Made by a program: the position numbers and the translations under genes. Shown piece after piece: positions 15,045 to 40,930 of a DNA stretch of 64,000 bases. The notes under the pieces are model-generated. The model saw nothing but the letters and a program-made list of their open reading frames with translations, was not told the DNA's origin and made no database searches. The stretch lies in IMG/VR virus record IMGVR_UViG_3300034358_000044, positions 124,001 to 188,000 of that record, one strand, 5' to 3'. Within the stretch, counting starts at the first letter, position 1, and each line of letters begins with the position of its first letter. This DNA comes from a virus.

Positions 15045-15728
15045 ATGCATCCTCGGACTCTGTCAGCCTTCCAGAACGAGATGCGGAAGATGGCTTACGT
15101 GTCGTCTTCCGCCAAGCTCCTTGAAGTTGATGGAGTCCCGTTGTTGGAGAAGTACCTGGATCGCCAGGCCATGGAGAAGCTGTCCAAGGCAGAGGACGAC
15201 GATGGTTTCAACTTCTTCGAGCGCCACCCCAAGAAGATTCTTGGTGGTGCAGCACTTGCTGCAGGGACGGGGCTGTACCTCCTGAGCAGACGTAAGACTC
15301 CCAAGGTTCAGCCGAAAACGGTCCTGGAAGAGGCCAAGCAGGCGACGCACCCCGTAGCAGAGTCCCTACCGACGCCTTCAGTCCCCAAGGCCAGGGTTGA
15401 GGCGGTACTTCCCAAGTCCTCTCCCAAGGCCCCAGCGAAGCCTGGGAAGCAGGTAGAGGTGATGCTTCAGGGGAAGCCCGTCAAGCTCACCACGGAACGA
15501 AGTGAGCACGATTGGGTGGCAAGGGGACCGAATGCCGATAAGCCCCGAGTTGAGGGCTATCGACGAGACTCCAAAGCCCCAGTTCCTCGCCACCCCAGGG
15601 GACGGCATTTGAATCTTCAGGATGCATCCAAGATGGAGCGCCCACTCGAAGATGAGCAGGTACTTCTGAAGAAGTTCGGAATGGCCCGGCTTGCTTCTTT
15701 GGGGGCCATGTTCTACGTAGGTTCTTGA
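15045..15728 (+). CDS. Putative internal virion protein with N-terminal F-x-N-E-M-x-K-M-A tag
   Basis: The 227-residue product starts MHPRTLSAFQNEMRKMAYVS, a variant of the tag shared by six other genes in this window. At about residue 70 comes the hydrophobic cassette GGAALAAGTGLYLLSRRK, a single membrane-like segment with a basic end. The C-terminal two thirds are basic and Pro/Lys-rich (PKSSPKAPAKPG), likely disordered. The architecture (tag, membrane-like segment, basic tail) repeats in the genes at 31-41 kb. I infer a head-packaged protein that may act on DNA or membranes. Confidence 0.6.
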   Translation: MHPRTLSAFQNEMRKMAYVSSSAKLLEVDGVPLLEKYLDRQAMEKLSKAEDDDGFNFFERHPKKILGGAALAAGTGLYLLSRRKTPKVQPKTVLEEAKQATHPVAESLPTPSVPKARVEAVLPKSSPKAPAKPGKQVEVMLQGKPVKLTTERSEHDWVARGPNADKPRVEGYRRDSKAPVPRHPRGRHLNLQDASKMERPLEDEQVLLKKFGMARLASLGAMFYVGS

Positions 15729-15737
15729 GGTAGCTCT

Positions 15738-16214
15738 ATGCCCTGGATCGAGAAGAACAGCGAGACCAACGAAGTCGCGTCCCCCAACGACATCAGGTCG
15801 AAGACTCTGGACCATGCACGTGAAGAGGGACTGCCGGTCATCACCAAGGAGGTCGAGGCCGGCACCAAGCCCTTCGACCCTATCCAGTTTCAGCCCGTGA
15901 AGAGCCCCGGCATCTACGACGCGGAGTTCGGCGTGAAGGGTGCCGACGTCATCTTCCACTTCTGGCCCTCCGGTTACCACGTCGCTCAGAGACGTGGAGT
16001 GGTGACGCCGAGGTTCAAGCAGGGGTTCGAGCTCGCCCTTCGACGCACCATGGGGGACGTGTTCGACACCAACCGTGTCTTCATCGACGAGGACAAGGAC
16101 ATGGGGGCGCTCTTCGTGAAGGCCAGTGGGTGGGGCGAGGCCCAGTTCCACCGGGACCTCTGCATCAAGGCCTGCGAGAAGCTTCACGCTGCCATGGGTG
16201 GCGAGCCGGGCTGA
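15738..16214 (+). CDS. Unknown protein, 158 residues
   Basis: It begins MPWIEKNSETNEVASPNDI after AGGTAG. It contains a hydrophobic/aromatic core (DVIFHFWPSGYHVAQRRG) and a helical part rich in charged residues, and ends KACEKLHAAMGGEPG. No domain is recognised. It is the last gene of the rightward unit that begins with the polymerase; a hairpin follows. Confidence 0.55.
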   Translation: MPWIEKNSETNEVASPNDIRSKTLDHAREEGLPVITKEVEAGTKPFDPIQFQPVKSPGIYDAEFGVKGADVIFHFWPSGYHVAQRRGVVTPRFKQGFELALRRTMGDVFDTNRVFIDEDKDMGALFVKASGWGEAQFHRDLCIKACEKLHAAMGGEPG

Positions 16215-16224
16215 GGGCTAAGAA

Positions 16225-16243
16225 ACTGGGGTACGTCCCCAGT
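16225..16243. terminator. Hairpin between convergent genes
   Basis: ACTGGGG-TACGT-CCCCAGT forms a 7-bp stem between the rightward gene ending at 16214 and the leftward gene ending at 16267. There is no clear U-tract, so termination strength is uncertain. Confidence 0.45.
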
Positions 16244-16266
16244 CCCCTACTGCTACAGCAGGCCGA

Positions 16267-16551: not shown

Positions 16552-16580
16552 TGTTTGGTCCCTTCAGAGCCGCAACAAAT

Positions 16581-16611: not shown

Positions 16612-16630
16612 GAAGCGTGGTGCAGAGTTG

Positions 16631-17804: not shown

Positions 17805-17847
17805 CACGGGGGGCTACCTCCTTCTTAGTGCGGGGCATCCGTTCCTT

Positions 17848-21262: not shown

Positions 21263-22306
21263 ATGAACAACGAGTCATCCATTGCCCTGCTAAGCAAGGG
21301 CAAGAGCGCAAACATCTCCCCCGAGAAGCTGGAGATGATGGGCAAGGAGGCTGCCAACATCTTCATCGAGAAGCACATCTCCCTCAACGAGAGCATCTCG
21401 AAGCTGGCTGCGGCACACGATGACATCAGCCAGGAACAAATCAAGAGGGTCTGCGAATTCGCCAACACCGCCGTGTACCTGGCGAAGCACGACATGGCCA
21501 AGACCGCCGGCTCCTCTTCGAGCTATCCCGAGTTCGACCTGGCCGATCCGAACCGTGTCATCCAGGACCTCTCGGATGGAACCAAGTCCACTGTCACCAC
21601 CAAGGTGGATGCTGACTACAGCCGCCTGCCTCAGAAGGTGAAGACCTCTTCCGCAGAGAAGAAGGTCGTTCGAATTGACCGGATGAAGGGGGCCAATGGG
21701 AAGCCGAACTACTGCGTCCATCACTACAGTGATGGAACCAGTTCCGGCCCGACCACTACAAAGACGGCCTCTCCAGCCGAGATGGCCCTTGAGGAACTCT
21801 TCACTTCGAAGACTGCAGAAGACCTCGACTACTCCAAGGACACTGCCGTCAATGAGGTGATGGCCGCCAAGGAGCAGCTCATCGGCCTCAGGGACCATCT
21901 TCGTTCCGCCGGAGAGCAGTTCGACCTGCTGCGCAAGGAGTCTGCTTCCGAGCTCTACGAGCTCTCCAAGCGCTTCATGATGGACGGGGGCAGCTTTGCC
22001 GACATCGGCAAGGTGGCCTACGCTGTCAGCCAGAGTCAGGACGAGATGGCGAATCTCCTCGACCCCATCATCAAGGGGCTGCTGAAGGAGAAGGTCTCCA
22101 GTGCCTCTGAGCTCAAGCTGGGCATCCGTGGGATGGAGAAGGTGGCTCACCGTACCGTCAATCCCGAGCACCCCATGATGAAGGTGGCAGCCGCCGTCCT
22201 CGTGGCCGACAGAGAGATGGAGAAGGTGGCCCAGGGGCTCAAGGAGGTCACTGCCGGACTCAACGAGGTGAACTCCTTCATCAAGGAGCAGCTCCGTGCT
22301 GGGTAG
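21263..22306 (+). CDS. Structural or scaffold-associated protein with K-x-A repeats
   Basis: The 347-residue product starts MNNESSIALLSKGKSA. It is helical and charged. Recurrent short peptides ending Lys-(hydrophobic/Thr)-Ala occur: DMAKTAGS, TKTASPAE, TSKTAED, GKVAYA, MEKVAHR, MMKVAAA and MEKVAQG. The last 200 residues are probably coiled-coil. It opens the head gene cluster and precedes the prohead protease, so a scaffold or internal core role is plausible. The repeated K-x-A peptides could be protease processing sites; this is inference. Confidence 0.6.
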   Translation: MNNESSIALLSKGKSANISPEKLEMMGKEAANIFIEKHISLNESISKLAAAHDDISQEQIKRVCEFANTAVYLAKHDMAKTAGSSSSYPEFDLADPNRVIQDLSDGTKSTVTTKVDADYSRLPQKVKTSSAEKKVVRIDRMKGANGKPNYCVHHYSDGTSSGPTTTKTASPAEMALEELFTSKTAEDLDYSKDTAVNEVMAAKEQLIGLRDHLRSAGEQFDLLRKESASELYELSKRFMMDGGSFADIGKVAYAVSQSQDEMANLLDPIIKGLLKEKVSSASELKLGIRGMEKVAHRTVNPEHPMMKVAAAVLVADREMEKVAQGLKEVTAGLNEVNSFIKEQLRAG

Positions 22307-22530: not shown

Positions 22531-23151
22531 ATGACCGCCGAAGAGATTCTCGCAGCTGCCAACGAGGCGAACCCTGAGTACGTCGAGAAGACGGCGAACG
22601 CTCTGTTCGTTCTGCAGCATGGAGAGCCAGAGTTCGTTGACGAGATGATGAAGGACATCAACATCATCACCGCAGTCACGATGGAGAAATCTGCAGGAGT
22701 GAAAGACGTTTTGAGGCGTGGTTGGGGCAGTACTGGGGGGAAGCTCCCTGACGCAGCTCAGGGTGTGCTGATTGCCGGTGCAGCTTCAGTCGCTCTCGGA
22801 CTGGGGGCAGCAGTGGCAGGAGACCTCTACGATGCTGCCAAGAGAGGCCTCACCAGGAAGAGGAACTACGATGCCATCGTCAAGGCGAACCCGGACCTTC
22901 AGCGCCACGACAAGAAGGAGCTCATCAACTCCTTCTCCACTCTTCACCGCTTCGCTCCTGAGTTCACTGCAGATCCTCGCCTGGGTGGTGAGCTCCTGGG
23001 GGCCATGGCCTCTTTGGGAGGCGGTGCTGAAGGGGGGCAGCGTGCCCTGGTTGAGGAGCTCCTCAACTCCAGGAAGACGTTGGTTGACGCCCGGAAGAAC
23101 CAGTTCTCTCTCGGCAGGCCCGATGCCAGCATGATGGGATTCAAGAAGTGA
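22531..23151 (+). CDS. Putative membrane-active virion protein
   Basis: The 206-residue product starts MTAEEILAAANEANPEYVEK with CCAGGAG upstream. It has K-T-A and K-S-A peptides in the first 60 residues, then a clear hydrophobic span GVLIAGAASVALGLGAAVAG (about residues 78-97) flanked by D-L-Y-D-A-A-K-R. The C-terminal part contains NSFSTLHRFAPEFTADP, a pattern I recall from uncharacterised proteins of large phages. Its stop overlaps the protease start (GTGA). A head-internal or membrane role is possible. Confidence 0.55.
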   Translation: MTAEEILAAANEANPEYVEKTANALFVLQHGEPEFVDEMMKDINIITAVTMEKSAGVKDVLRRGWGSTGGKLPDAAQGVLIAGAASVALGLGAAVAGDLYDAAKRGLTRKRNYDAIVKANPDLQRHDKKELINSFSTLHRFAPEFTADPRLGGELLGAMASLGGGAEGGQRALVEELLNSRKTLVDARKNQFSLGRPDASMMGFKK

Positions 23152-24758
23152 TCAAGCAGCTTTCCTATCTCGGTCGAACCGAGCAAGGCATCTTCGCTCA
23201 AGCGCTCTTCGGGAGTGCTGGGGCCTTCGAGAAGACTGCCGGCGCTCCTCCGTTTGCCAACTTGGAGACCGGTGACGAGCTGAGGAAGGCTGTCTCCAGC
23301 ATCACCAAGAAGGACAGAGAAGCGTTCTGCTACGTCCTGGTGAACGCCTTGGGAGCTGGAGAGTTCTTTGGCTCCAACATCAACGCGGACTGGTTCCCGT
23401 GGAATGCTCTCTCCCACCAAGGGGATGACTACGGGTACAAGACGTTCTTGAGGGCGCACGCCTTCTCTCACCACAAGAACAAGGATCCTCAGCGCGCCTT
23501 CGGTGTACCCATCTCCTCCCTACTGAACCCGCGCATGAAGCGGGTCGAGCTCATCATCAAGCTCGACAGGGAGAAGGCGAAGCTGGAGCAGGCGGACGGC
23601 ATCATCAGCCGCATCGACGCCGGAGAGTTCCCTGACGTCTCGATGGGCTGCAAGGTTCCATTCGACGTCTGCTCCATCTGCGGTAACCACAGCAAGACGA
23701 AGGACGACTACTGCAAGCACATGAGGCCCGACCCGGAAGACCGGGACAAGTGGGGGCCGAACAAGATTCTCCCAGATGGACGGCGCATCTGCGTCATCAA
23801 CACGCTTCCTAGGTTCTTCGACATCTCCTTCGTCTTCATTGGAGCGGATAAGACCGCCAAGGTGATGATGAAGTTGGCCTCAAGAAACATCGTCACTGGC
23901 CCAATCATTCTGTCGGCCGATGCAGGTGCTCAGTTCTACGAGGGTATTGGTAAGCAGAAGACCGCCTCCGTTCGACAGGAGCTCCCCAAGATGGCCTCCC
24001 AGAAGAAGGTCTCAGAGATTCTGAAGGACATTCCTGCTGGCACCTTCTCCATGAAGAGGCTGTCCTCTCTGGAGAGGGCCGAGCCCACCATCGGTAAAAA
24101 GGCGCTCAAGAAGCTTTCCCAGCATCCCCTGTCTGCTGCCCTCGGGGCCACTGCTGCGATGGGCATCGTCCTCAAACCGGAGGAGTTCCAGTATCTGGTG
24201 TTGGAGAAGATGGGTGAAGCAGAGCTGGCAGACATCCTCTCCAATGAGACTCTGGTCTTCCACAAGACCGCATCCTTCCACCATACGGACATCGAGTTTA
24301 TCAAGGAGGCGGTCGATTCCTCCATTTCTCTTCTTCGAGACGTGGTGAAAGAGCGGACAGTCTTTGGGGAGCCGTTCGTGCTTCGAACGGCTGCTCCTTC
24401 AGAAGCCCCCAAAAACCCTCTTCCCACACCTTCTCCGGTCGAGCATTCTCTTCTGGACAAGATCAGCGCGGCATACAATGGTTACCGTTGGTCGCTGATG
24501 ATGAAGCTGTCGGAAGCGTCGGAGATGGTGGAGAGCGACTCAAGGTTGCGAGAGGCTGTACTGGGAGACGGACTGGTGAACATGTTTTCAAAGACGGCCA
24601 GTCGTTCCCCACTCATCACTCGCGACTCGGTAGCATACATGATGGGCGCTCATTTCTCTGACCGTAGTGTGTTGTCGAATGCTGCAGTCGTCGATGCGAT
24701 TGCAGAGAGCAACAAGGACTTCCTCAATGGTGAGGGGTTCTCGGCCCAGGGGTTCTGA
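23148..24758 (+). CDS. Prohead maturation protease with long C-terminal extension
   Basis: A 536-residue product. The catalytic half resembles phage prohead serine proteases: a His-rich segment FLRAHAFSHHKNKDPQRAFG (His104, 108 or 109 as base) followed by a strand-rich core and VSMGCKV with the presumed nucleophile Ser165. A zinc-like knuckle is inserted right after: CSICGN ... YCKHM (Cys175, Cys178, Cys189, His191). The C-terminal 280 residues are helical and hold several K-x-A peptides (KTASVRQ, FHKTASFHH, FSKTASRS), suggesting a fused scaffold or self-processed part. It lies upstream of scaffold-like genes and the major capsid protein, the standard order. Confidence 0.75.
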   Translation: MIKQLSYLGRTEQGIFAQALFGSAGAFEKTAGAPPFANLETGDELRKAVSSITKKDREAFCYVLVNALGAGEFFGSNINADWFPWNALSHQGDDYGYKTFLRAHAFSHHKNKDPQRAFGVPISSLLNPRMKRVELIIKLDREKAKLEQADGIISRIDAGEFPDVSMGCKVPFDVCSICGNHSKTKDDYCKHMRPDPEDRDKWGPNKILPDGRRICVINTLPRFFDISFVFIGADKTAKVMMKLASRNIVTGPIILSADAGAQFYEGIGKQKTASVRQELPKMASQKKVSEILKDIPAGTFSMKRLSSLERAEPTIGKKALKKLSQHPLSAALGATAAMGIVLKPEEFQYLVLEKMGEAELADILSNETLVFHKTASFHHTDIEFIKEAVDSSISLLRDVVKERTVFGEPFVLRTAAPSEAPKNPLPTPSPVEHSLLDKISAAYNGYRWSLMMKLSEASEMVESDSRLREAVLGDGLVNMFSKTASRSPLITRDSVAYMMGAHFSDRSVLSNAAVVDAIAESNKDFLNGEGFSAQGF

Positions 24759-24814: not shown

Positions 24815-25594
24815 ATGGATCCCCAGCTTGCAGCAATCTACGGAACGGCGAATGTCGATGAGGCAGACCTGGAGAAGCTCGCCGCAGCCGAGCTCGCAGA
24901 AGGCCTCGCCAACGAAGAAGAGGGCACGGAAGACCTGACCGAGGAGGACCTGGAGGCGATCGCTCAGGACGTCCTCAACGGTTCCGACGAGGGCGACGAG
25001 GGTCAGGAGAAGACCTCTGAGGCGCAGGAGAAGCTGGCCGAGGCCGACTACCTCGGCCGCGTGATGGCGCACTCGTACGTCAACGAGCTCCGCAGCATCG
25101 AGAAGACGGCCGAAGATGCAGCGCCCGCCAAGGCCAAGGAGCCGGGACGTGTGCGCCAGGCAGCAGGCAAGGCCTGGGGTGCGGTCAAGGGTGGTGGCAA
25201 GCGCTACGGCGAGCTGATGCGTGGTGGCAAGGCGGGCGAGGCAGGTGAGATGGCAGGACGTCGTGCCGGCAACTCGCTCAAGGGTTTCAAGCAGATGCGT
25301 GGTGAGGCGCTGAAGTCTCTCGGCGCTCGTGGTGGTACTGCCATCGGTGCCGCTGGTGCCGCCTACGGCGCCAAGAAGCTGTATGACAAGGTCAAGAAGT
25401 CGTCGGCCGTCGACACGCTCGTCGAGCAGCGCGCGCTGGAGATCCTCGAAGCCAACGGCATCGATCCGAACCAGCTCTCCCCGGTCGAGGGGCAGACCAA
25501 GATGTCGGATCCCCGTGAGGCGCTGGCCAACGAGGTCGAGCAGAGGGCCTGGAACCTGCTCGGCCAGTACGGAGTGGTTCCCGACGAGGAGTGA
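24815..25594 (+). CDS. Acidic scaffold-like / internal head protein
   Basis: The 259-residue product has CCAGGAG upstream. Residues 15-80 are very acidic (LANEEEGTEDLTEEDLEAIA), typical of scaffold proteins. Then ADYLGRVMAHSYVNELRSIE followed by K-T-A, related to the W-A-D-x2-G-R-x2-A tags at 35.6 and 36.9 kb. A basic region follows, then a Gly/Ala cassette GGTAIGAAGAAYGAKKLYDK almost matching the one at 31.2 kb. Location between protease and capsid genes supports a core or scaffold role. Confidence 0.65.
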   Translation: MDPQLAAIYGTANVDEADLEKLAAAELAEGLANEEEGTEDLTEEDLEAIAQDVLNGSDEGDEGQEKTSEAQEKLAEADYLGRVMAHSYVNELRSIEKTAEDAAPAKAKEPGRVRQAAGKAWGAVKGGGKRYGELMRGGKAGEAGEMAGRRAGNSLKGFKQMRGEALKSLGARGGTAIGAAGAAYGAKKLYDKVKKSSAVDTLVEQRALEILEANGIDPNQLSPVEGQTKMSDPREALANEVEQRAWNLLGQYGVVPDEE

Positions 25595-25609: not shown

Positions 25610-26062
25610 ATGCCGGAATGGATTCACCAGAGAGCAGACCACATACGGGCCAAGAACCCAGGCATGTCTGAATCTCAATCCTTCGCCATCGCTACCCAGC
25701 AGGCTCATGCATCAGGCAAGGCCCCTCGGGGGTTCGGTACTCCCGAGGGGAAGAGGGAAGCGAAGAAGAAGTACGATGAGCCGAAGTCCGCCTACAAGAA
25801 GACAGCGGACCCCGGCCACATCGCCAAGACTTCCTCGGTCATGGTGATGTGGGCTGGGTTCTCTGATGAACTCCAGAAGATCGCATTCGCAGGTGCTTCA
25901 ACGGTTTCCAATGTCACCAAGCCAATACCTACTCCAGGTATGAAACTGCCGAAGTTGACAGCAAAGCCGGTGGTAACGGAGCCGGAATCACCGGCCTCAA
26001 AGTTGGACCTCTTGGGAAGTTCTCGAACGCCACAACCGCCGCCTGTGACTTCAGGTGGGTAA
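25610..26062 (+). CDS. MPEWI-type small protein carrying an internal F-x-D-E-L-x-K-I-A tag
   Basis: The 150-residue product starts MPEWIHQRADHIRAKNPGMS and continues SFAIATQQAHASGKAPRGFG, a pattern I recall as widespread and uncharacterised in large phages and metagenomes. After a basic linker and K-T-A it has MWAGFSDELQKIAFAGAS (about residues 81-98), an exact internal copy of the tag that is N-terminal elsewhere. The tail is Pro-rich. The tag position suggests fusion of two modules or cleavage between them. Confidence 0.6.
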   Translation: MPEWIHQRADHIRAKNPGMSESQSFAIATQQAHASGKAPRGFGTPEGKREAKKKYDEPKSAYKKTADPGHIAKTSSVMVMWAGFSDELQKIAFAGASTVSNVTKPIPTPGMKLPKLTAKPVVTEPESPASKLDLLGSSRTPQPPPVTSGG

Positions 26063-28443: not shown

Positions 28444-29565
28444 ATGAGCACCGTTCCCGCAAAGGTTCTGAACGATCTCTTCTTCGAAAAGATCGGATCT
28501 GCAGAGGGCAAGGACAAGATCGCCGAGTTCGGCGGTACGTACATCCGTGACCGTCTGCGTGAAGTCTCGTTCGCCAGGAAGATCATCCCGCCCACCCCGG
28601 TGCAGCGCAGCGAGCTGCAGCGTTCGGTGAACCACGACACCCTGGTGAAGATCGTCGACATCGAGCCCGACTCGAAGGCGATGAGCCTCACCTTCCGTGG
28701 CCAGCCCACGGCCCGGTTCATTCGTGCGCCGCGCTTCGAGATCCCCTTCTTCACCATCTCCTCGGAGAAGTTCGAGAAGACGGAGCAGGAGCTCCTGGCG
28801 TACGAGATGCCCATCACCAAGATCATCGAGGAGAACTCGGTCAAGGACATCCAGGCGATCGAGGACCGGCAGTTCCTCATCTACGTCGAGGCCTGCATCC
28901 AGGCGTACCAGCTCGACAGCAACAACGGAGTCGCGACCTCCTTCAACAGGACCCGCGTCCTGGCCGGTACGGTCGTCAGCTCCTCCGTGGTCAAGAGCGA
29001 GGGTGCTCTGGCTGCGTCGGCCGACAACTTCATCGTCCACCCCCTGCTGAAGCCCGACTTCATCAAGCTCAAGCAGGTCATGCACCGTCGCTTCCTGCGT
29101 GCTGAGCGCATCCTCATCACCGAGCCCGACTACGACAACCTCTCGGCCTGGACCATCCAGGACGTGTGGAGCATCGCTGCCGAGACGGCGACCGAGGGCT
29201 GGAAGGCCAACACGGTGGTCGGCCTCAAGATCATCCGCACCATCAAGACGAACATCCTCCGCGAGGGCAACATCTACTGCTTCGCGGCTCCCGAGTTCTT
29301 CGGCCGGTTCTACATCCTGAACCAGACGAAGTTCTACATCGACAAGATCGCCAACCTCATCACCTGGCAGTCGTGGGAGGACATCGGGATGGGCTTCGGC
29401 AACATCGCCGCCGTGGTCAAGCTGGAGCTCTACTCCGGCTCGGTCACCCCGGGTGCCACCGACACCGGCTTCTGGGCCGAGCTGCCCAAGGACGAGGACG
29501 ACCTGTCGCCCATCAACAACAGGGCCGACAAGGGCCTGACCACTCCGGAAGTCGACCAGTTCTGA
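28444..29565 (+). CDS. Major capsid protein, HK97-like
   Basis: The 373-residue product starts MSTVPAKVLNDLFFEKIGSA. It has an N-arm/E-loop-like region (RFEIPFFTISSEKFEKTEQE), a spine helix region, then LLKPDFIKLKQVMHRRF and ILITEPDYDNL, matching the P-domain/A-domain style of HK97-fold capsids. It ends in an acidic tail. A perfect rho-independent terminator follows, consistent with very high expression. Gene order (protease, scaffold-like, decoration, capsid, neck) fits. No long N-terminal pro-domain is obvious, so the scaffold function is likely in trans. Confidence 0.85.
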   Translation: MSTVPAKVLNDLFFEKIGSAEGKDKIAEFGGTYIRDRLREVSFARKIIPPTPVQRSELQRSVNHDTLVKIVDIEPDSKAMSLTFRGQPTARFIRAPRFEIPFFTISSEKFEKTEQELLAYEMPITKIIEENSVKDIQAIEDRQFLIYVEACIQAYQLDSNNGVATSFNRTRVLAGTVVSSSVVKSEGALAASADNFIVHPLLKPDFIKLKQVMHRRFLRAERILITEPDYDNLSAWTIQDVWSIAAETATEGWKANTVVGLKIIRTIKTNILREGNIYCFAAPEFFGRFYILNQTKFYIDKIANLITWQSWEDIGMGFGNIAAVVKLELYSGSVTPGATDTGFWAELPKDEDDLSPINNRADKGLTTPEVDQF

Positions 29566-30674: not shown

Positions 30675-31208
30675 GTGTCGGACCAGGAAGCAATGTACGA
30701 TCCGCCACGGCCACCACCTGCACCGTTGGACTCTCCTTCTGTCCCCAGAGCCCACATCGAGCTCAACAACTTCGTGAATCAGGTTCGGTCCTTCATGAGG
30801 GACTACCCTGAGCTCAACCGCCTGGTCGCTGGGGTGGAGAGCTCCAACCGGCAAATCGTTTGGGCCATCTTCGACACTCTGGACGACTTCAACTCCAGCC
30901 CGCCCTTCACGATGCACAACGTGGAGTCCTTCCCCTCCAAGAGCCTTCTCATCCGGGGCACGGTCTGCTCTCTCTTGGAGTCCATCGGTCTCCTTCAGAC
31001 GCGCAACCACCTCCAGTTCTCGGACGGCGGCATCACCGTAGGGGTGAGCGACAAGACCCCCTTCATCCAGTCCTGGCTGCAGCTCTTCCGCAACTCCTAC
31101 GAGGCGAAGAAGGAGAAGCTGAAGGTGGCCTACAACATCGAGACGGCCTGGGGTGGTGGAGTCTTCTCGGAGTACCGATTCGTGAACAACTTCTACGGGG
31201 AGTGGTGA
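30675..31208 (+). CDS. Probable neck / head-completion protein
   Basis: The 177-residue product begins at GTG. After a Pro-rich start it has a helical/beta domain: ELNNFVNQVRSFMRDYPELN, then IVWAIFDTLDDFNSSPPF, SLLIRGTVCSLLESIGLL and FSDGGITVG. The location between capsid and tail genes and the size are typical for head-tail connectors; this is context-based. The stop overlaps the next start (TGATG). Confidence 0.6.
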   Translation: MSDQEAMYDPPRPPPAPLDSPSVPRAHIELNNFVNQVRSFMRDYPELNRLVAGVESSNRQIVWAIFDTLDDFNSSPPFTMHNVESFPSKSLLIRGTVCSLLESIGLLQTRNHLQFSDGGITVGVSDKTPFIQSWLQLFRNSYEAKKEKLKVAYNIETAWGGGVFSEYRFVNNFYGEW

Positions 31209-31699
31209 TGCATCCCTACATGTTCAAGGGTTTCGAAGATGAGCTTCAGAAGATCGCCATCTCAGAAGAGTGGGCGAGAGAGCACTCTCGAAGAGGGATG
31301 GCAAACCGCTTGAGGCTGGAGGAAGCGACTCTCACTGGAACTGGGGCTCGTAGAAGTCGTGCTGTAAAGGGAGGCCATGAACTGACGAGTAAGGGAAACG
31401 ACAGGGCCCTCGATCTCCAAGGACGGCTCGCGAGCCGAAAAGATTCCATTTCCTCCAGAACCCAGAAGAACCTGGATGCTTCGTGGGCAGGAGTGACGGA
31501 TGCTTTCAAGGACACGAAAGACTTGAAGAAGTCTATTTCAAAGTCTCGCGCCGAGAAGGTCAAGAGCATTCGAAACCTCAACACCGTCAAGAAGGTGGGC
31601 AAGGGTGTTGCCGGTGTCGGAGTTCTTGCTGCTGGTGCCTACGGAGCCAAGAAGATGTACGACCGGCAGAGGACCAAGATCCCTGCTAAAAGCGAGTGA
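31208..31699 (+). CDS. Tagged putative internal virion protein with C-terminal membrane-like cassette
   Basis: The ATG overlaps the preceding TGA. The 163-residue product starts MHPYMFKGFEDELQKIAISE, an exact F-x-D-E-L-x-K-I-A tag. A basic helical middle (KKSISKSRAEKVKSIRNLN) precedes GVAGVGVLAAGAYGAKKMYD, nearly the same hydrophobic cassette as in the scaffold-like gene at 24.8 kb, and a basic end. The design suggests a packaged, membrane-interacting protein. No enzymatic motif. Confidence 0.6.
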   Translation: MHPYMFKGFEDELQKIAISEEWAREHSRRGMANRLRLEEATLTGTGARRSRAVKGGHELTSKGNDRALDLQGRLASRKDSISSRTQKNLDASWAGVTDAFKDTKDLKKSISKSRAEKVKSIRNLNTVKKVGKGVAGVGVLAAGAYGAKKMYDRQRTKIPAKSE

Positions 31700-31703
31700 G
31701 CCA

Positions 31704-33950
31704 ATGCACGTCGCCACGCTCACTGCCTTCGAGGACGAGCTTGAGAAAGAGGCAGATGTCATCACGCCCCTCAAGGCGCATCAGCAGAGGGTCGTCGATC
31801 GCATTCAGCAGGAGGACCAGCCCGGTCTTGTGGTGGCCCACGGACTGGGTTCTGGCAAGACGCTGACGTCCATTGCCGCCCAAGACGCATTGGGGATGCA
31901 TGCGGACGTCGTTGTTCCTGCCGCCCTACAGGCGAACTACAAGAAGGAAATCAAGCAGCACACCAAGGGCAAGGTTCCCAAGGCGGCCATTCAGTCGATG
32001 CAGAACGTGGCCACCAAGAAGACGCAGTTGAAGCGCCCGATGATGGTAGTGGACGAGGCCCACCGCATGAGGGATCCGTCCTCCAACACCTTCCAGACGC
32101 TGAAGGGGACGGAAGCCAAGAAGCGACTACTCCTCACTGGGAGCCCATTCTACAATCACCCTTCGGACATCGCCCCACTCATCGACCTGGCCGCCAATGC
32201 CAAGGTGCTACCATTCGACAAGGATGAGTTCACTCGGGCCTATATTGCCGAGAAGACCATCAACCCCAGTTTCGGGCAGAGTCTGGCCAACATCTTTCGT
32301 TCTGATGAGAATAAGGTGAGGCCCGGTTTCGTGCCCATTCTCTACGAGAAGAAGGCTCCTGAACTACGAGCCGCCTTCAAGAAGTGGGTCGACTACCATC
32401 CAGGCAGCAAGGATGCAGAGGGCTTCCCGGATGTCGAGAAGAGGGACGTCCCCATCGAGATGACGAAGGAACAGCTTCGCGTCTACGATACCCTCATGGA
32501 CAGGGCGCCCGCTTGGGTCGCCGCCAAGGTGAAGCGCGGATTGCCTCCCAGCAAGCAAGAGGCCTCGCAGCTCAACGCCTTCCTCACGGCTTCTCGGCAG
32601 GCCACCAACACCACCGCCCCCTTCCAGCAGGACCAGAAGAACATCCAGGACCCGAAGATTCAAGCCGCCTTCTCCAGCCTCAAGAAGACCCTGGAGGGCA
32701 ACCCGCGAGCTCGGGCAGTGGTGTATTCCAACTTCCTGGATGCAGGCATCAATCCCTACAAAGCCAAGCTGGACGAAGCCAAGATTCCCTACGGGGAGTT
32801 CACTGGGGCCATGTCCAAGAAGAAGAGGGAGGAGATAGTCCAGCAGTACAACGCAGGTAAGCTGCGAACGCTTCTCCTCTCCAGTGCAGGTGGGGAAGGT
32901 TTGGACTTGAAGGGCACCAGACTGATGCAGATTCTGGAACCTCACTGGAACGAAGAGAAGCTGAAGCAGGTCCATGGGCGTGGGGCTCGCTACATGAGCC
33001 ACTCCGATCTACCTCCTGAAGAGCGAAAGCTCCTCATCGAGAACTACATCGCCAAGCGCCCCCAGGGACTGCCGACGTCGGTCTACAACAAGATCACGGG
33101 TCGAGCCCCGGACAAGTCAGTGGATGAGTACTTGACCCAGATGTCCGGCGACAAGGAGAAGCTCATCGAACAGTTCCGTGCGCTCCTCCCGAATGGGAAA
33201 GAGAAGAAGTCTGCTGCCGAGAAGAAGAAGGAACTCTTCGTCACCGACGAGAACACTCAGCGAGGCAAGACCACTGAGGTATCCAGAGAGCTTGCCAAGT
33301 CCCTGAAGCCGAGGGCGGCAGCCTTTGCTACCTTCACTGCCCCATTGGCTCTCACCGGGTTTCGTCTCGCTCGGGGGCTAGGGCCGAACATGAGTACGAA
33401 GTCACAGGCCCTTGCTGGAGGTGTTGGGGCGGCTCTCGGTGGTGCTCTGGGACACTTCATTGCCCATAATCAGACCGCCAACATCATCAACGACAGCAAG
33501 GCCATTGCCCGTCAAGCTCTTCGAACCGCCTCCAAAGAGAACAGCCTTCGAGAGGAAGCTGGGAAGATGAACTGGGGTGATGTTGCGCGTTCCTCCAGGA
33601 ATCGCGTCATCAGTGATGTGGCCACCTCCGCTCCAGTACTCACTCGACTAGCGACCCAGCACATCCAGGGAAAGGGGCTTAAATTCCCCACGACGGACCT
33701 GGGGCTCATGGCGGCTGGAAACATCCTAGGCTCCATCGGATCCGGCTACCTAGAGAAGTACAAGAAGATGATTGCCGTGAATGAGCTCGACAACGTCAAA
33801 GCTCGTATGGCGGAGCAGGACGCTACGCGCCTCAAGAGACTTCGTAACCAGGTAGCCCAGCTGGAGACTCGGGTCGAGGGGGACGGATGGAACGCCCCCA
33901 AGAAGGACGACGCTCCAGTTGAGAAGAAGAAGGGCAAGCTGGACTGGTAG
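31704..33950 (+). CDS. SNF2-like superfamily 2 helicase with N-terminal virion tag
   Basis: A 748-residue product. Residues 1-17 are MHVATLTAFEDELEKEA, a tag variant with Glu for Ile. Helicase motifs follow: I, HGLGSGKT (46-53); II, VVDEAH (115-120); III, LLLTGSP (142-148); then the second RecA domain with VVYSNF, LLLSSAGGEGLDL (motif V) and QVHGRGARY (motif VI, about 420). Residues 520-650 add a Gly/Ala-rich cassette (ALAGGVGAALGGALGHFIAH) absent from normal helicases, and a C-terminal coiled coil. It would translocate on duplex DNA or remodel DNA-bound proteins. Its tag and location suggest packaging in the virion. Confidence 0.85.
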   Translation: MHVATLTAFEDELEKEADVITPLKAHQQRVVDRIQQEDQPGLVVAHGLGSGKTLTSIAAQDALGMHADVVVPAALQANYKKEIKQHTKGKVPKAAIQSMQNVATKKTQLKRPMMVVDEAHRMRDPSSNTFQTLKGTEAKKRLLLTGSPFYNHPSDIAPLIDLAANAKVLPFDKDEFTRAYIAEKTINPSFGQSLANIFRSDENKVRPGFVPILYEKKAPELRAAFKKWVDYHPGSKDAEGFPDVEKRDVPIEMTKEQLRVYDTLMDRAPAWVAAKVKRGLPPSKQEASQLNAFLTASRQATNTTAPFQQDQKNIQDPKIQAAFSSLKKTLEGNPRARAVVYSNFLDAGINPYKAKLDEAKIPYGEFTGAMSKKKREEIVQQYNAGKLRTLLLSSAGGEGLDLKGTRLMQILEPHWNEEKLKQVHGRGARYMSHSDLPPEERKLLIENYIAKRPQGLPTSVYNKITGRAPDKSVDEYLTQMSGDKEKLIEQFRALLPNGKEKKSAAEKKKELFVTDENTQRGKTTEVSRELAKSLKPRAAAFATFTAPLALTGFRLARGLGPNMSTKSQALAGGVGAALGGALGHFIAHNQTANIINDSKAIARQALRTASKENSLREEAGKMNWGDVARSSRNRVISDVATSAPVLTRLATQHIQGKGLKFPTTDLGLMAAGNILGSIGSGYLEKYKKMIAVNELDNVKARMAEQDATRLKRLRNQVAQLETRVEGDGWNAPKKDDAPVEKKKGKLDW

Positions 33951-33988: not shown

Positions 33989-34828
33989 ATGCATCTCCGC
34001 ACCCTTACGGCTTTCGATGACGAGCTCGTGAAGATCGCCGTCTCGGAGAGGGAGAACTCTCAGACCCTTCGTGACCAGAAACGCTTGGATCTTTTTCATA
34101 AGACACTGGCGGTAGGTGGCTCAGCATATGGGGCTCATGCTCTTGGTGTCGGGGCCAACCGTGCTCTGGTTGGCTCGTTGATTAGAGGGGAGCAAGGTCT
34201 CTCTACGTCCCCACAGCATATTCTCGACCTTCACCATCAGATTCACCCAGAGGGTATGGTTGTTCCTGTGGAAGGGGGTCTTGATTTCGCCAAACACATC
34301 TACCACGGGACTCCGACTGCTGGGATACCTCGGGGAGCTGTAGAAGAGATAAACGGGCCCGGCGGAGTGCATCTTCCGAAGACGACGAGAGGGGTGAGTA
34401 TAGCTCCTACTCAGGTAGGGCCTCACATAACTGCACATGAACTCGGACACGGAAGGTTTTCACAGGGAAAGCTGGGAAGGGCTGCCATAGGGGCTAAGAG
34501 ATTTCTTGGCACGCATCAAACAGCTGTAGGGCGTGCAAGCGCAATAGGTTCGTATGGAATGGCTCTTCAAGACCCTGACAGCGCGGCTTCAAAGTTGGCT
34601 CCGGTAGTCGGCGGCCTTCGACACCTCCCAACTCTTGTTGACGAGGCTGGCGCCACATTCCATGGACTACGAGGAATGAAGGCTCTCGGGATGAAGGGTG
34701 GGAAGGCTTCCCTAGCCAAGGCATTCGGTACGTACGCGGCGGCGGCTGCCCCTTCCGTACTGGGTCCCGCTGGTGTTCGTCAGTTCATGAAGTACAAGAA
34801 GAACAAGGCCAAGGAGAGCGCTCCGTGA
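33989..34828 (+). CDS. Putative zinc metalloprotease with N-terminal virion tag
   Basis: The 279-residue product starts MHLRTLTAFDDELVKIAVSE, the exact tag. A Gly/Ala segment follows (AVGGSAYGAHALGVGANRAL). The centre has ITAHELGHGRF, an HExxH zinc site (His150, Glu151, His154); Asp218 or Glu219 in LVDEAGATFHG is a candidate third ligand (gluzincin-like). The C-terminus has another hydrophobic Ala-rich stretch and a Lys-rich end. It could process virion or host proteins on infection. Family membership beyond HExxH is not clear. Confidence 0.65.
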   Translation: MHLRTLTAFDDELVKIAVSERENSQTLRDQKRLDLFHKTLAVGGSAYGAHALGVGANRALVGSLIRGEQGLSTSPQHILDLHHQIHPEGMVVPVEGGLDFAKHIYHGTPTAGIPRGAVEEINGPGGVHLPKTTRGVSIAPTQVGPHITAHELGHGRFSQGKLGRAAIGAKRFLGTHQTAVGRASAIGSYGMALQDPDSAASKLAPVVGGLRHLPTLVDEAGATFHGLRGMKALGMKGGKASLAKAFGTYAAAAAPSVLGPAGVRQFMKYKKNKAKESAP

Positions 34829-35412
34829 GTCCTGTCAGTCTCGCAGCTTTTCAAGATGAGCTGATGAAGATCGCCTCTGTCAGTGAGACTCTCAAGGGTC
34901 TCGCCAAGAACCCCGCTGTGGGTGGGGCTGTATTGGGTGGTGGTCTCGGGGCCGGAACCAACATCCGAAAAGAGATGGCGACCCGGCACGGGGAGGACTA
35001 CCACCCTGACCAGGAGCTGGTGGCGAAGAACCGAAAGAAGCGCATCGGTCGCATGGCTGCCAGCACTGCGGCCTCTGCCGGCACCGGAGCCCTTCTAGGG
35101 CACTTCGGAGGGAAAGGTGTTCGGGCTCTCAAGAACACCGCCAAGAATGCCATCAAGAATGTTGGCGATGAGGTCAAGGGAGTGGTCTCTCACACTGGGG
35201 GAGAGATCAAGGGTACTACCTCCCATATCGCTGATGACGTGAAGACCACGTCTTCACACCTGACTGACAGGGCCAAGGACGTAGGGGACGTCATCAAGGA
35301 CGTCAACACCGGAGTGGGTCGCAGACTCCTGGCGCGTCCCAAGGAGAAGGGTCCCTCCGTCTTTGAGCGAATCAAGAGTGTCTGGAACGGAAAGAAGAAG
35401 GAAACCACATGA
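34825..35412 (+). CDS. Tagged putative internal virion protein, Gly-rich
   Basis: The 195-residue product begins at the GTG in GTGA overlapping the protease stop. The N-terminus MSPVSLAAFQDELMKIASVS holds the exact tag. Two Gly-rich stretches follow (VGGAVLGGGLGAG; ASTAASAGTGALLGHFGGKG), then an amphipathic repetitive region with 11-residue-like periods (VKGVVSHTGGEIKGTTSHI) and a basic tail. Such repeats form membrane- or DNA-binding helices in other proteins. Function unknown. Confidence 0.6.
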   Translation: MSPVSLAAFQDELMKIASVSETLKGLAKNPAVGGAVLGGGLGAGTNIRKEMATRHGEDYHPDQELVAKNRKKRIGRMAASTAASAGTGALLGHFGGKGVRALKNTAKNAIKNVGDEVKGVVSHTGGEIKGTTSHIADDVKTTSSHLTDRAKDVGDVIKDVNTGVGRRLLARPKEKGPSVFERIKSVWNGKKKETT

Positions 35413-35577: not shown

Positions 35578-36162
35578 ATGGACATCGACCGCGAAATTCG
35601 AATGATGAAGCTGGCCTGGGCCGATGACCTCGGGCGCCAGATGGCCCATGCCGACATGGAGAAGCTGGCTCTTGCAGGCATCGTTCCTGGAGGGGTGATG
35701 TCCAATGTTCGCCACATCGGAGGTAGTCTGCTCAACACCTCCCAGCTGGGGAAGGGAGTACGGTCTGCAGTTGGGGCAGGCTACGGTGGCATCGCTGGAG
35801 CCGGTCTCGGCGCCGCCAAGGGCCTCATCGCCCCCGGTCAGGATGCCCAGGGGAACCAGAGAGGGAGACTCGGAGCCATGGCCGGTGGAGCCCTCAAGGG
35901 TGGTGTTGGTGGTGCGGCTCTCGGCGCTGGAGCAGGCCTTGCCTCCAAGGGGGTCGTTCGTAGTATGGCGGCCGGCAATACGGGTAGAGGCTCTGGAATG
36001 CGCAACCTGATGCAAGGGGCCATCGACAACTCCAAGAAGATGACAGGGGTTACCAACCACCCCATTCTGAATCAGATGCAGAAGAACGTGACAACTCTCA
36101 ATCGCACTGCCAACGTTGCTAACATGCGTAGTGGCAACGCCAACATGGCAGCCTACATCTAG
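35578..36162 (+). CDS. Gly-rich virion protein, W-A-D tag family, copy 1
   Basis: The 194-residue product has WADDLGRQMAHADMEKLALA at residues 14-33, matched by the gene at 36810 and more loosely by the one at 24815. Two long Gly/Ala-rich blocks follow (VGAGYGGIAGAGLGAAKG; GAMAGGALKGGVGGAALGAG), separated by a polar loop with Q-R-G-R-L-G. The C-terminus is Asn/Met-rich. The block-loop-block layout is a paralogous match to 36810. A membrane-active or head-internal role is inferred. Confidence 0.6.
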   Translation: MDIDREIRMMKLAWADDLGRQMAHADMEKLALAGIVPGGVMSNVRHIGGSLLNTSQLGKGVRSAVGAGYGGIAGAGLGAAKGLIAPGQDAQGNQRGRLGAMAGGALKGGVGGAALGAGAGLASKGVVRSMAAGNTGRGSGMRNLMQGAIDNSKKMTGVTNHPILNQMQKNVTTLNRTANVANMRSGNANMAAYI

Positions 36163-36170: not shown

Positions 36171-36806
36171 ATGAACGAGCTCGACTTCATTGAGGCGTTG
36201 AGGAGTCCTGAGGTGGACTCTCCACGAGCTCTATTTCAGAAGCTGGCTGAGATGAAGTGCAAGAACTGCGTGAACCCGGCCACCAAGGTGCTGATGTGGG
36301 CCGAGCACCGGGCCTACATCCCTTCCTGCGACGGATGCGTCGAGAAGCTCATCAAGAAGAATCCCCAGTGTTGGACTCCTGAGGATGGGAACCGCCCGGA
36401 GTCCATCAAGCCTGCCTCCTACATCACCGACAAGAAGAAGAAAAAGAAGACTGCTGGAGTTCAAGAGATGCTGAAGTCCAGGCTTCCAGAAATCGGTGCA
36501 GGACTTCTGGGAGCGGCGGCAGTTGGGACGGGGCAGTACCTGATGAACCGCCGTCGCAAGGGTGGTACCCAGCCTTCACTGGAACAGGTCCAGACTCGTG
36601 CATTCAACGAGCAAGCCCAGGTTCTCCGTCGTCAAGCAGCCGCAGAGAACCGTCCTCTCACCTACAAGGAGAGGATGCTCCTTGAGGTTGACTCTCGCGC
36701 CAACCGGGTCGCAGACATCATGGCGGACCACCCAGTGAAGGGAGCTCTTGTTGCGGCTCCCATGGGTGCGTATCTCGGCGTCAAACTTCTCAACATGGTG
36801 AGGTAG
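36171..36806 (+). CDS. Zinc-site protein with two hydrophobic segments
   Basis: The 211-residue product starts MNELDFIEALRSPEVDS and has ALFQKLAEM, a short tag-like peptide. A four-Cys site follows (KCKNC and CDGC, with His between), as in a small zinc knuckle. A Lys run (KKKKKK-like) precedes the hydrophobic GAGLLGAAAVGTGQYLMNRR, and the C-terminus ends with KGALVAAPMGAYLGVKLLN. It lies between the two W-A-D-tag genes. Not recognised. Confidence 0.6.
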   Translation: MNELDFIEALRSPEVDSPRALFQKLAEMKCKNCVNPATKVLMWAEHRAYIPSCDGCVEKLIKKNPQCWTPEDGNRPESIKPASYITDKKKKKKTAGVQEMLKSRLPEIGAGLLGAAAVGTGQYLMNRRRKGGTQPSLEQVQTRAFNEQAQVLRRQAAAENRPLTYKERMLLEVDSRANRVADIMADHPVKGALVAAPMGAYLGVKLLNMVR

Positions 36807-36809: not shown

Positions 36810-37529
36810 ATGTCCCCAGAAATGAAGCTGGCCCGAGCACTGTCCAACGTCCCCAAGAAGGAAAAGACTTCTTCACGGGACGAAGCAATGGAGAAGCTCT
36901 CGTGGGCTGATGAATTCGGCCGTGAGCTCGCTCGGGAGCACATGGAGAAGCTGGCCATCAATCCTGTCTCGTCCTTGACCCAGCAGGTTGTGGGGAAGGG
37001 AATGCACGCCGCACTGGGAACTGGTGCGTTGAAGCGCACTGCGGTGGGTGCAGCAGGAGGTGCCGCTCTCGGAGGAGCGGGCGGTCTCATGAAGACCCCG
37101 ACTGTGGATCCTGCAACGGGGCAGCGTCAGAGCCGGCTCGGGAACGCCATGGCGGGGGCTGTAGGTGGTGGCGTGGTGGGAGGAGGTCTCGGACTTGGAG
37201 CCAGGACAGCGGCTCATGCTCTTGGTAGCTCCAACAGCGGCATCGGTCGGTACGCCGGAGGAGCTCTCAAGTCTGAGGCGAAACGGACAGGGCATCTTGG
37301 GGTAGGAGCTACTTCCTACGAGATGCAGGCGAACCGTCTCCGTGGTGCCACAGAGGTCAGAGGAGCTCGGCAGGCAGGCCAGTCGCACACTCTGGATCCT
37401 CGTGCCCCAGGTGGGAACGGCATGGCCCCATCGCCTACAGGAACAGGGGCTCTAGCACCCCAAAGGCCCGGTCTCATGGAGCGACTCGGGCAGAAGACTC
37501 GGAAGGTGTTTAACGCTTTCGGTGGGTAA
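36810..37529 (+). CDS. Gly-rich virion protein, W-A-D tag family, copy 2
   Basis: The 239-residue product has WADEFGRELAREHMEKLAIN at residues 31-50, aligned with the tag at 35578. The same block-loop-block follows: VGAAGGAALGGAGGLMK, a loop with G-Q-R-Q-S-R-L-G, then MAGAVGGGVVGGGLGLGA. A Pro/Arg-rich tail follows. It is clearly a paralogue of the gene at 35578 at protein level with diverged DNA. Confidence 0.65.
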   Translation: MSPEMKLARALSNVPKKEKTSSRDEAMEKLSWADEFGRELAREHMEKLAINPVSSLTQQVVGKGMHAALGTGALKRTAVGAAGGAALGGAGGLMKTPTVDPATGQRQSRLGNAMAGAVGGGVVGGGLGLGARTAAHALGSSNSGIGRYAGGALKSEAKRTGHLGVGATSYEMQANRLRGATEVRGARQAGQSHTLDPRAPGGNGMAPSPTGTGALAPQRPGLMERLGQKTRKVFNAFGG

Positions 37530-38786: not shown

Positions 38787-38803
38787 CTTCCTGGAGATGG
38801 CTC

Positions 38804-39721
38804 ATGCCACTACCCGTTACGACGAAGAGCCGCCACTTTGTCTGGTTCTCTCGGCCGGATCTTCCTACTGGGATGTATCCGGCCTTCAACTACTTCAAGA
38901 GGGTAGATACTCTGGCTACTATCTACCCAGCACCCATACTCACCACGATTGACTACGGGGGCTTCTACTTCGATTTTGACTACACAGAGAACTTCGCCTT
39001 CGCGGCACTGGGAGAAGCCGCTCCGGACATCGTCTATGAGATCGACGGAGGTCCCAACATCGTCGACCCGATGAAGAGGTACAAGGTAGGTCGAATCAGC
39101 AACAGGGACAGCTACGTCGATAGGCCCTTCAGTGCCCTCAAGAGTGAGCTCGTCGTCTACCTCGACTACATTCGGACTGATACGGCCACCACTTCAGACG
39201 TCCTAGGTACTCACCGTCCAGACCAGAATTCAACTGTTTCTGACTACATTTCCTATTTGTTCGACTTGGCTGGCATGAACTACGGGGTGACCGATAACAT
39301 CCAGACGAAGACGGACCGCCTTCCTATGGACCCTGCCAGTCAGGCTGCTGTTCTCGCCAGTATCGTCTCGAACGTCTCCGCCTCCACCTCTGCGATTCGA
39401 GGGGCAGATGCACGGAGCCTGACGGACCTCGCCGGCACTGGGTTCTCCCCAGCCACCATGTCCTTGAAGATGCAGCATGTCGCACTCCTGAGAACTCTCG
39501 GGCTGGTCCACGAGAACTCGGTGATGGACAACACCAGCTTCGACACGGACAACAACCTCCTCAGTGGGCGTCTGCGCCTCTACGACTCGAAGACGAATGC
39601 TGATGCTGCCTTGGCAGCGAGCCCCGGCATCTTCAACACTGGTAAGCTGGCAGAGTACGCCATCACGGCATCCTACGTCGGCAAGAACCTCAAGACGTAC
39701 AAGGTCAGTCTGGAGGGCTAG
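38804..39721 (+). CDS. Unknown structural protein
   Basis: The 305-residue product has GGAG upstream of its ATG. It contains a Tyr/Phe/Asp-rich beta segment (TIDYGGFYFDFDYTENFAFA), then a helical middle (AAVLASIVSNVSASTSAIRG), and a C-terminal strand region. Its stop overlaps the next start by one base. A neck or collar role fits the position; no family recognised. Confidence 0.55.
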   Translation: MPLPVTTKSRHFVWFSRPDLPTGMYPAFNYFKRVDTLATIYPAPILTTIDYGGFYFDFDYTENFAFAALGEAAPDIVYEIDGGPNIVDPMKRYKVGRISNRDSYVDRPFSALKSELVVYLDYIRTDTATTSDVLGTHRPDQNSTVSDYISYLFDLAGMNYGVTDNIQTKTDRLPMDPASQAAVLASIVSNVSASTSAIRGADARSLTDLAGTGFSPATMSLKMQHVALLRTLGLVHENSVMDNTSFDTDNNLLSGRLRLYDSKTNADAALAASPGIFNTGKLAEYAITASYVGKNLKTYKVSLEG

Positions 39722-40647
39722 TGTCCGTCAAAATCACCAGTCTCAAGGTCAAGAGCTTTGACCTGGACCATCTCGATCTCTTCTGGGAAATCTCCCCAGT
39801 CGTTGGTCCACGTCGAGATGAGGACCGACATGAGATCTTCGACTATGAGTTCTACATCTGGCGAGCTGGTGACAGCCCGATGGGGCCGTACGAGGAGATA
39901 GCTGGCCCTCTTCGCGACCAGTACATGATTCGTGACATGCAGGTCTCCCTCCTGCACAAGTGGCGACAGTACTACTACAAGATTCGTGTCGTTCACGTAC
40001 CGACTGAGACTGAAGAGATCTTCGGCCCGGCCTCTTCAGAAGGTGGAGACAAGGATCTCATCGCCGCCGAAATCATCAGGCAAGAGGACATTCTCTTCCG
40101 TGAGTACACCGGCAGGAAGTGCTGGCTCTTCATCGCCCGTACCTTTGGCCCGCTGTGTACCTGCTGGGACAGAGTGCTGCAGCGCCGCACCAGGTCTGGT
40201 CATGCTCTCTGCTTCGACACAGGCTTCCTGGGAGGCTTCATGTCCCCCATTGAAGTCCACGTGCAGATCGACCCTGAGGGAAAGAACTCTCAGGCCACGG
40301 CTTTGGGGGAGATACAGCCGGGGGACACTGCGGCAAGGATGATCTCCTTCCCACCTGTGAGTCCCAGAGACATACTGGTCGAGTCAGAGAACACAAGATG
40401 GAAGGTCATCTCTGTCTCCAACACGGAGCGACTGCGCTTCCCAGTCCACCAAGAGCTGCGCATTCACGCGATTCCAAGGGGCGACATCGAGTACAACCTA
40501 CCTCTTCGCTTCCAACCCAATGAGCTCAAGAAGCTCACCACCTCAGCGGACAGGAACTTCACCAATCCGCAGAACCTAGAGCAAGACGGTGACTACTCGG
40601 ACATCTACAGTGCCTTCGGCTATTCACCACGCGGCGCTCTTCGATGA
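39721..40647 (+). CDS. Neck-type structural protein with Cys knuckle
   Basis: The 308-residue GTG-started product has an N-terminal fibronectin III-like half (FDLDHLDLFWEIS ... YYYKIRVVHV). A Cys-containing knuckle follows: FGPLCTCWDRVLQRRTRSGH, then ALCFDTGFLGGFMSPIEVHV. The pattern C-x-C-W-D, then C-x-D-T-G-F-x-G-G-F is one I recall from virion/neck proteins of large phages. The C-terminus is beta-rich. A role in head-tail joining is likely from position and resemblance. Confidence 0.65.
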   Translation: MSVKITSLKVKSFDLDHLDLFWEISPVVGPRRDEDRHEIFDYEFYIWRAGDSPMGPYEEIAGPLRDQYMIRDMQVSLLHKWRQYYYKIRVVHVPTETEEIFGPASSEGGDKDLIAAEIIRQEDILFREYTGRKCWLFIARTFGPLCTCWDRVLQRRTRSGHALCFDTGFLGGFMSPIEVHVQIDPEGKNSQATALGEIQPGDTAARMISFPPVSPRDILVESENTRWKVISVSNTERLRFPVHQELRIHAIPRGDIEYNLPLRFQPNELKKLTTSADRNFTNPQNLEQDGDYSDIYSAFGYSPRGALR

Positions 40648-40930
40648 GCTCATGAAGATTGCGGAAGCGACGCAACCTCCAGAGAAGAAGTCGAAGTTCA
40701 AGCGGTGGCTGAAGAACTCTCTTATCGTGGCTGGAGCTGCTGGAACTGGCACTGCAGCAACCATGGTGGCGGACAAGGCCCTCGGACCTCACATGGGCAA
40801 GATGTGGAACAAGATGTCGCCCACCATGAAGAGAGCCGTGGTGGGGCCTCTCATTGGACTCACCGGTATTGGAGCTGTGCTGGCCTCGCAGAAGCTGATG
40901 CAGCAGCGCTACAAGGACGAGAATGGCTAG
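40589..40930 (+). CDS. Tagged small hydrophobic protein overlapping the neck gene
   Basis: The 113-residue frame starts at GTG 40589, 59 bases inside the previous gene. It carries AALFDELMKIAEA (residues 15-27), another tag copy, then a basic stretch, a hydrophobic cassette (LIVAGAAGTGTAATMVADKALG) and a second membrane-like segment (VVGPLIGLTGIGAVLASQKL). No start closer to the overlap end keeps the tag intact (Met22 at 40652 lies inside it). The next ATG overlaps its stop. Confidence 0.55.
   Translation: MTTRTSTVPSAIHHAALFDELMKIAEATQPPEKKSKFKRWLKNSLIVAGAAGTGTAATMVADKALGPHMGKMWNKMSPTMKRAVVGPLIGLTGIGAVLASQKLMQQRYKDENG

Follow-up and report, generated by a model that had tools for sequence, protein, structure and literature searches.

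Here we report a short N-terminal peptide that is shared by dozens of otherwise unrelated proteins of a large, uncultured phage and related phages and is likely to be a removable capsid-targeting peptide, similar in its working to the capsid-targeting sequences (CTS) of T4 and cut after a K-x-A motif by a protease of the T4 gp21 type. The DNA analysed (hereafter the window) is the 64,000-nucleotide stretch at positions 124001-188000 of the virus record IMGVR_UViG_3300034358_000044, which totals 195,735 bases, and it encodes a myovirus gene set of portal, large terminase, gp21-type protease, HK97-fold capsid protein, tail sheath and fused beta-beta′ RNA polymerase. Seven copies of the peptide had been listed in an original prediction, and all seven could be found at the named genes: FQNEMRKMA (15069), FSDELQKIA (25859), FEDELQKIA (31232), FEDELEKEA (31728), FDDELVKIA (34013), FQDELMKIA (34849) and LFDELMKIA (40637). 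Six are N-terminal, the copy in gene 25610 is internal, and a M-H-x-x-T-L-[ST]-A-F start is, as had been claimed, common to three of the genes. The seven copies are the following.

15045..15095, + strand: N-terminal tag MHPRTLSAFQNEMRKMA on a 227-residue protein, whose homolog in L021 lacks a tag.
25859..25885, + strand: internal FSDELQKIA at about residue 84 of gene 25610-26062, the internal position being kept in orthologs.
31208..31258, + strand: N-terminal tag MHPYMFKGFEDELQKIA on a 163-residue protein; the homolog in relative G002 is tagged too.
31704..31754, + strand: tag MHVATLTAFEDELEKEA on an SNF2-type helicase (31704-33950; Pfam SNF2-rel_dom 8.5e-16, Helicase_C 4.3e-15).
33989..34039, + strand: N-terminal tag MHLRTLTAFDDELVKIA on a 279-residue protein with a HELGH zinc-peptidase-like motif.
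34825..34875, + strand: N-terminal tag VSPVSLAAFQDELMKIA on a 195-residue Gly-rich protein with homologs in L022 and L016.
40610..40663 (start 40610), + strand: tag MPSAIHHAALFDELMKIA on a 106-residue protein; the homolog in G002 is tagged too.

Ahead of its internal tag-like copy, gene 25610-26062 encodes an N-terminal part, MPEWIHQRADHIRAKNPGMSESQSFAIATQQAH, that relatives conserve well and for which Pfam gave no match.

The strict pattern occurs six times in the head-module gene set, compared with 0.00 times in 200 shuffles, and is absent from the remaining window genes; its frequency is thus above expectation. Codon identity at the shared residues is no higher (0.55) than codon usage predicts (0.62), and therefore the sharing is at the protein level, as the original prediction had argued from the differing codons. 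The list of seven was incomplete, since the same genome holds five further N-terminal copies (12612-12986 on the minus strand, 30716-32095, 55171-55491, 55500-56186 and 122415-123320 of the record) and head-module proteins hold tens of copies of a shorter core. A MazG/P-loop protein is also tagged in this genome. Across five genomes, 30 of 1228 genes carry [ED][LMF]xK[IVLTEM]A within their first 26 residues, against a mean of 1.2 and a maximum of 5 after shuffling. With other loci added the tagged proteins number 46, and clustering of their bodies without the tag gives 36 unrelated clusters.

The tag is a modular N-terminal leader of 12-19 residues ending at K-x-A, with the consensus [LM]-x-[AGS]-[FLM]-x-D-E-[LM]-x-K-I-A. 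Its conservation stops at the Ala, and the cargo bodies start directly after K-x-A. Among 34 aligned tags the positions outside the search pattern are also shared, with A, G or S at -7 in 32, D at -4 in 25, and mostly hydrophobic residues at -9. F at -6 is characteristic of the tags and is missing from internal sites. The spacing of the hydrophobic positions -9, -6, -2 and +1 would put them on the same side of a helix, and the leader may therefore be an amphipathic helix.

The last five residues of the tag define a core, h-x-K-x-A (h being L, M, I, V or F), which is not confined to tags. The 23 head-module proteins contain 45 copies of it, where shuffles give 13.4 ± 3.6, whilst the other 43 window genes hold 12 against 13.8 expected and the rest of the genome 63 against 45.7, an excess to which further tagged genes contribute. 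The head-module genes concerned, all on the + strand, are listed here together with the major capsid protein.

11596..14184, + strand: 862-residue protein with leader MNLYLDELPELDDGFRKMA and internal sites.
21263..22306, + strand: core/scaffold-like protein with seven h-x-K-x-A sites.
22531..23151, + strand: head-module protein with EKTA and MEKSA sites.
23148..24758, + strand: head-maturation protease, T4 gp21-type by its predicted fold.
24815..25594, + strand: scaffold-like all-helical protein with a conserved, tag-like block, EKxAEAD[YF]LGRVMAHAxxxELxxI.
26076..27440, + strand: core/scaffold-like protein with multiple sites.
27476..27847, + strand: small core-like protein with leader MSKINSTQAGLMMKVA.
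28444..29565, + strand: major capsid protein, HK97 fold (PHROG 3.6e-10; NCBIfam capsid_Caudo_2 match under the cut-off).

Viral contigs were scanned with the protease alignment, and 80 of the 343 relatives found in this way were used for counting sites per ortholog. The core is enriched in the 11596 family (4.9 sites against 0.8 expected), the 21263 family (mean 5.4 against 0.6 in 74 orthologs), the protease (4.5 against 1.0), the scaffold-like 24815 protein (3.5 against 0.7), the 26076 family (4.7 against 1.0) and the 27476 family (1.7 against 0.3). No such excess was seen in orthologs of the terminase (0.25 against 0.49), the decoration protein (0.03 against 0.13) or the sheath (0.09 against 0.41). 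The logo over 3866 K-x-A sites in relatives reads [ED][ED][MLF]E-K-[TVLI]-A-[SA]-A, with a strong preference for Ser or Ala directly after the Ala, then Ala, which resembles P1′ and P2′ positions; K-x-A in the rest of the window's own genome has no such context. K-x-A is probably the recognition motif of the head-maturation protease, a reading backed by several independent lines of comparison, and these contexts suggest a cut exactly after the Ala. Searches of the accessible literature turned up neither a K-x-A motif in prohead processing nor this tag, and K-x-A is probably a previously undescribed cleavage site at which the head protease cuts the tag off.

The protease gene lies between those of the portal and the major capsid protein and matches the head maturation protease family PHROG 18299 at 1.3e-7. 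As modelled, its fold is that of the gp21/assemblin-type family: the top three Foldseek matches of the AlphaFold2 model are T4 gp21 chains (probability 0.99-1.00, E 0.009-0.016, TM 0.48-0.49 on the target), the best being 5jbl. H108, H109 and S165 are invariant in a 48-sequence alignment and are candidates for the catalytic His and Ser. The protease itself carries K-x-A at residues 29-31, 242-244, 271-273, 281-283 and 482-484, within flexible linkers that flank the catalytic domain on either side or lie close to the C terminus. These coincide with the low-confidence parts of the model (28-37, 232-295 and 476-485); four of seven h-x-K-x-A sites fall within the 19% of residues with a low predicted local distance difference test score (p=0.03, a small sample). 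Lys and Ala are conserved in 98/96% of the 48 proteases at 29/31, 79/81% at 242/244 and 100/90% at 482/484, and the flanks less so. Herpesvirus assemblin (S21) cuts between Ala and Ser, at sites at the end of its protease domain and near the C terminus. The protease here has its sites at like positions, a likeness that rests on this layout and on the gp21 fold match, and the two have no sequence match. In the modelled protein, a site at the catalytic-domain end together with one near the C terminus would give the layout needed for self-processing in this protease clan.

The tag also resembles part of the scaffold-like protein 24815. This protein has one nearly invariant block, D[YF]LGRVMAHA[FYM]xxELxxI, within a long, confidently predicted helix, and the second half of the block is like the tag; some relatives read AFYDELTSI. 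At unconstrained positions the tags fit the block better (-3.62) than do position-permuted tags (-6.27 ± 0.46). Moreover, a copy of the block can be recognised in cargo genes 35578 and 36810. These two genes are listed here with a third gene that has a different leader.

35578..35670, + strand: leader MDIDREIRMMKLA-WADDLGRQMAHADMEKLA, in which two K-x-A sites flank a copy of the scaffold block.
36171..36248, + strand: leader MNELDFIEALRSPEVDSPRALFQKLA; homologs in L022, L017 and L016 have h-x-K-x-A with other leaders.
36810..36956, + strand: leader with scaffold-like block ..MEKLSWADEFGRELAREHMEKLA, matching the scaffold of L022 at E 1.2e-4.

The likeness of the tag to the block, together with these copies in cargo, suggests the hypothesis that the tag gains entry to the core by imitating the contact through which the scaffold itself assembles.

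Orthologous cargo retains the K-x-A end while the tag sequence upstream varies. The SNF2 helicase has FEDELEKEA in the window, MAFGFVDELQKLA in G006, MTYDPQALLRAARLLKEA in G001 and MSLGDYLTKSA in G004, and homologs of gene 34825 (L022, L016) have MNICSFLASEDEMHKIA or, in L016, merely MALKKQA. The homolog of the HELGH protein in G006 bears the tag MNYSSMRDEFYKIA. The original prediction had called this protein a protease, which is plausible because HELGH is retained in that distant homolog, although no family model matches it; most tagged bodies likewise had no match in Pfam, PHROGs or NCBIfam. In relatives, a C92-type amidase (2e-7) and a DnaJ protein (2e-6) are among the tagged cargo that could be recognised. 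The tagged protein at L126:16377-17153 in G002 has a PARP-like match that is weak and under the threshold, and its tagged neighbour has a weak kinase-like match; if real, the pair would parallel T4 Alt. We do not claim either identity, both matches being under the Pfam curated cut-offs.

Across relatives the motif excess follows the protease family: it is found in Arash, Vibrio D69, Desulfovibrio and Akkermansia contigs, and Bacillus phage G. In phage G the protease profile is matched by gp19 (6e-31) and the capsid profile by gp27 (5e-15), and the portal gp14 has a MAKQA site. Arash has syntenic core proteins with the same excess, which is clear in gp218, gp220-gp223 (gp222 being the protease), gp225, gp226 and gp242, and all of these are listed in its virion proteome (PMC10585845). 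No F-x-D-E-L-x-K-I-A leader was seen in the parts of Arash and Bacillus phage G examined. T4, phiKZ, SPN3US and SPO1 have no tags and, in the 50 kb examined, no clear h-x-K-x-A excess. The Desulfovibrio relatives of the protease with K-x-A excess lie in genome contigs (L147, L148 and L150, one of 383 kb), suggesting prophages of the same clade.

We infer targeting, binding partner, head loading, release and injection from comparison of sequences, in the following order. The N-terminal leader of 12-19 residues would bring cargo into the prohead core, where it probably mimics or binds the conserved helix of the scaffold-like protein (24815-25594). The gp21-type protease (23148-24758) would then cut after K-x-A, before or at head maturation, and would also cut the numerous K-x-A sites of the core proteins, along with its own. 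The cargo, freed inside the head, would probably enter the host with the DNA. It would comprise the SNF2 helicase, the HELGH protein and small Gly-rich proteins, and in relatives amidase-like, DnaJ and possibly kinase- and ADP-ribosyltransferase-like proteins.

The original prediction had proposed just such a T4-CTS-like signal, removed by the prohead protease. This remains the best-supported reading and survived all comparative tests that we ran, but three revisions were needed. The K-x-A that closes the tag is not unique to it: the motif recurs in scaffold-like proteins and in the protease, and is probably what the head-maturation protease recognises in general. The F-x-D-E-L part characterises the window's lineage along with several relatives; in other genomes this cargo has another leader that still ends in h-x-K-x-A. 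Lastly, the tag is not the sole route into the particle, since the Arash homolog of the SNF2 helicase is untagged and yet appears in the virion proteome (PMC10585845).

Several observations weigh against a removable targeting peptide. The tag is not obligatory, because the Arash virion helicase and the L021 homolog of the 15045 protein both lack it. With 116 proteins the Arash virion list is broad and may include contaminants, and its mass spectrometry text, as far as accessible, reports no cleavage sites (PMC10585845). Coverage values from Arash were used neither for nor against cleavage because several proteins combine near-complete coverage with two unique peptides. The major capsid protein has a near-universal K-[ILV]-A at residues ~27-29 with a weak site context, but whether this is a cut site is equivocal because the hydrophobic residue usual two positions ahead of the Lys is missing and conservation extends over the entire N-terminal arm. 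The Foldseek E-value (0.009) is modest, and a PDB sequence search with the protease profile gave only a match at E 0.1, which we took as noise. Moreover, for this uncultured phage the reading rests on sequence comparison.

The untagged helicase in Arash virions would also fit K-x-A being a processing site and nothing else, with other contacts bringing proteins into the head and the tag serving as a short propeptide that has no targeting role, as would the many leaders that retain just h-x-K-x-A (MALKKQA in L016, FAEKLA in G003). However, a cut site alone would need neither the positions -7, -4 and -9 that 34 unrelated tags share, nor the F at -6 that internal sites lack, and we consider this alternative unlikely. 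Conversely, the tag might never be cleaved and instead bind a core component or chaperone, the internal copies being docking sites. The resemblance to the invariant scaffold-like helix and the density of K-x-A in scaffold-like proteins speak for such binding, but the placement of K-x-A in flexible linkers at the ends of the protease catalytic domain, conserved above its flanks, the P1′/P2′-like residues after the internal Ala, and the abrupt end of tag conservation at the Ala all look like cleavage, making an uncleaved tag very improbable. Helical sequences rich in E, K and A are common in phage proteins, and the repeats could in principle have been made by chance, low complexity or a recent DNA duplication of a 5′ cassette. 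We rejected this as scarcely credible, given the absence of strict copies in shuffles, the four control phages without tags, and codon choice no more alike than expected.

The preferred reading, a removable targeting peptide, has its closest counterpart in the CTS of T4 internal proteins IPI-III and Alt, which is removed by gp21 (PMC9026906; PMC5694885). As there, a short N-terminal leader on unrelated internal proteins ends at a head-protease motif, the cargo varies between lineages, and the protease is of gp21 type (PMC9026906, PMC5694885). In contrast, the T4 site ends in Glu where K-x-A is found here (PMC5694885), and the leader here, for which targeting is proposed from sequence, resembles the phage's own scaffold-like helix. 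We did not file the tag in the T4 CTS family because its leader sequence and cut motif differ. The phages phiKZ and SPN3US are likewise large myoviruses with a virion RNA polymerase and many head proteins that have propeptides and several cut sites (PMC10052503, PMC5694885, PMC13282480). However, theirs are S/A/G-x-E or A-x-E motifs with mostly long propeptides, compared with K-x-A and tags of 12-19 residues here, and the proteases of T4, phiKZ and SPN3US cut after Glu (PMC9026906, PMC5694885, PMC13282480).

Other features of the window were also recorded. RNA polymerase beta and beta′ are fused in one 2090-residue head-module gene (4221-10493; Pfam Rpb2/Rpb1 domains; NCBIfam), in which no tag was seen; in Arash they are separate genes, and both are among the most abundant virion proteins (PMC10585845). 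At 46930-49703 on the minus strand, oriented against the virion genes, a MoxR-like AAA ATPase (AAA_5, 2e-13) adjoins a protein with a HEWQH motif and a weak, sub-threshold VWA_CoxE match. A cold-shock domain protein (45925-46131, minus strand, 1.6e-28) and a ribonuclease HII (17163-17807, minus strand, 2.5e-26) lie amid structural genes.

In summary, the tag may be part of a hitherto undescribed head-cargo system, widespread among the large phages of a broad clade and pairing a K-x-A-specific gp21-type protease with an exchangeable tag that copies the scaffold helix GRxMAHAFxDELxxI, such that any protein gaining the tag would be loaded, cut free and injected; this wider proposal we hold tentatively, at somewhat below an even chance. 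Its predicted protease specificity, after K-x-A, would be unlike the Glu-directed sites of T4, phiKZ and SPN3US. The 17-residue tag might serve to load proteins of choice into phage heads, and the proposal is testable in the cultured relatives Arash, Vibrio D69 and phage G. Nearly all virion genes of these phages are unnamed. If true, head-packaged and probably injected proteins could be named by a sequence rule across a large, mostly uncultured group of phages; head cargo and its cut points would be predictable, and the set of proteins that each phage injects could be read, from sequence alone.

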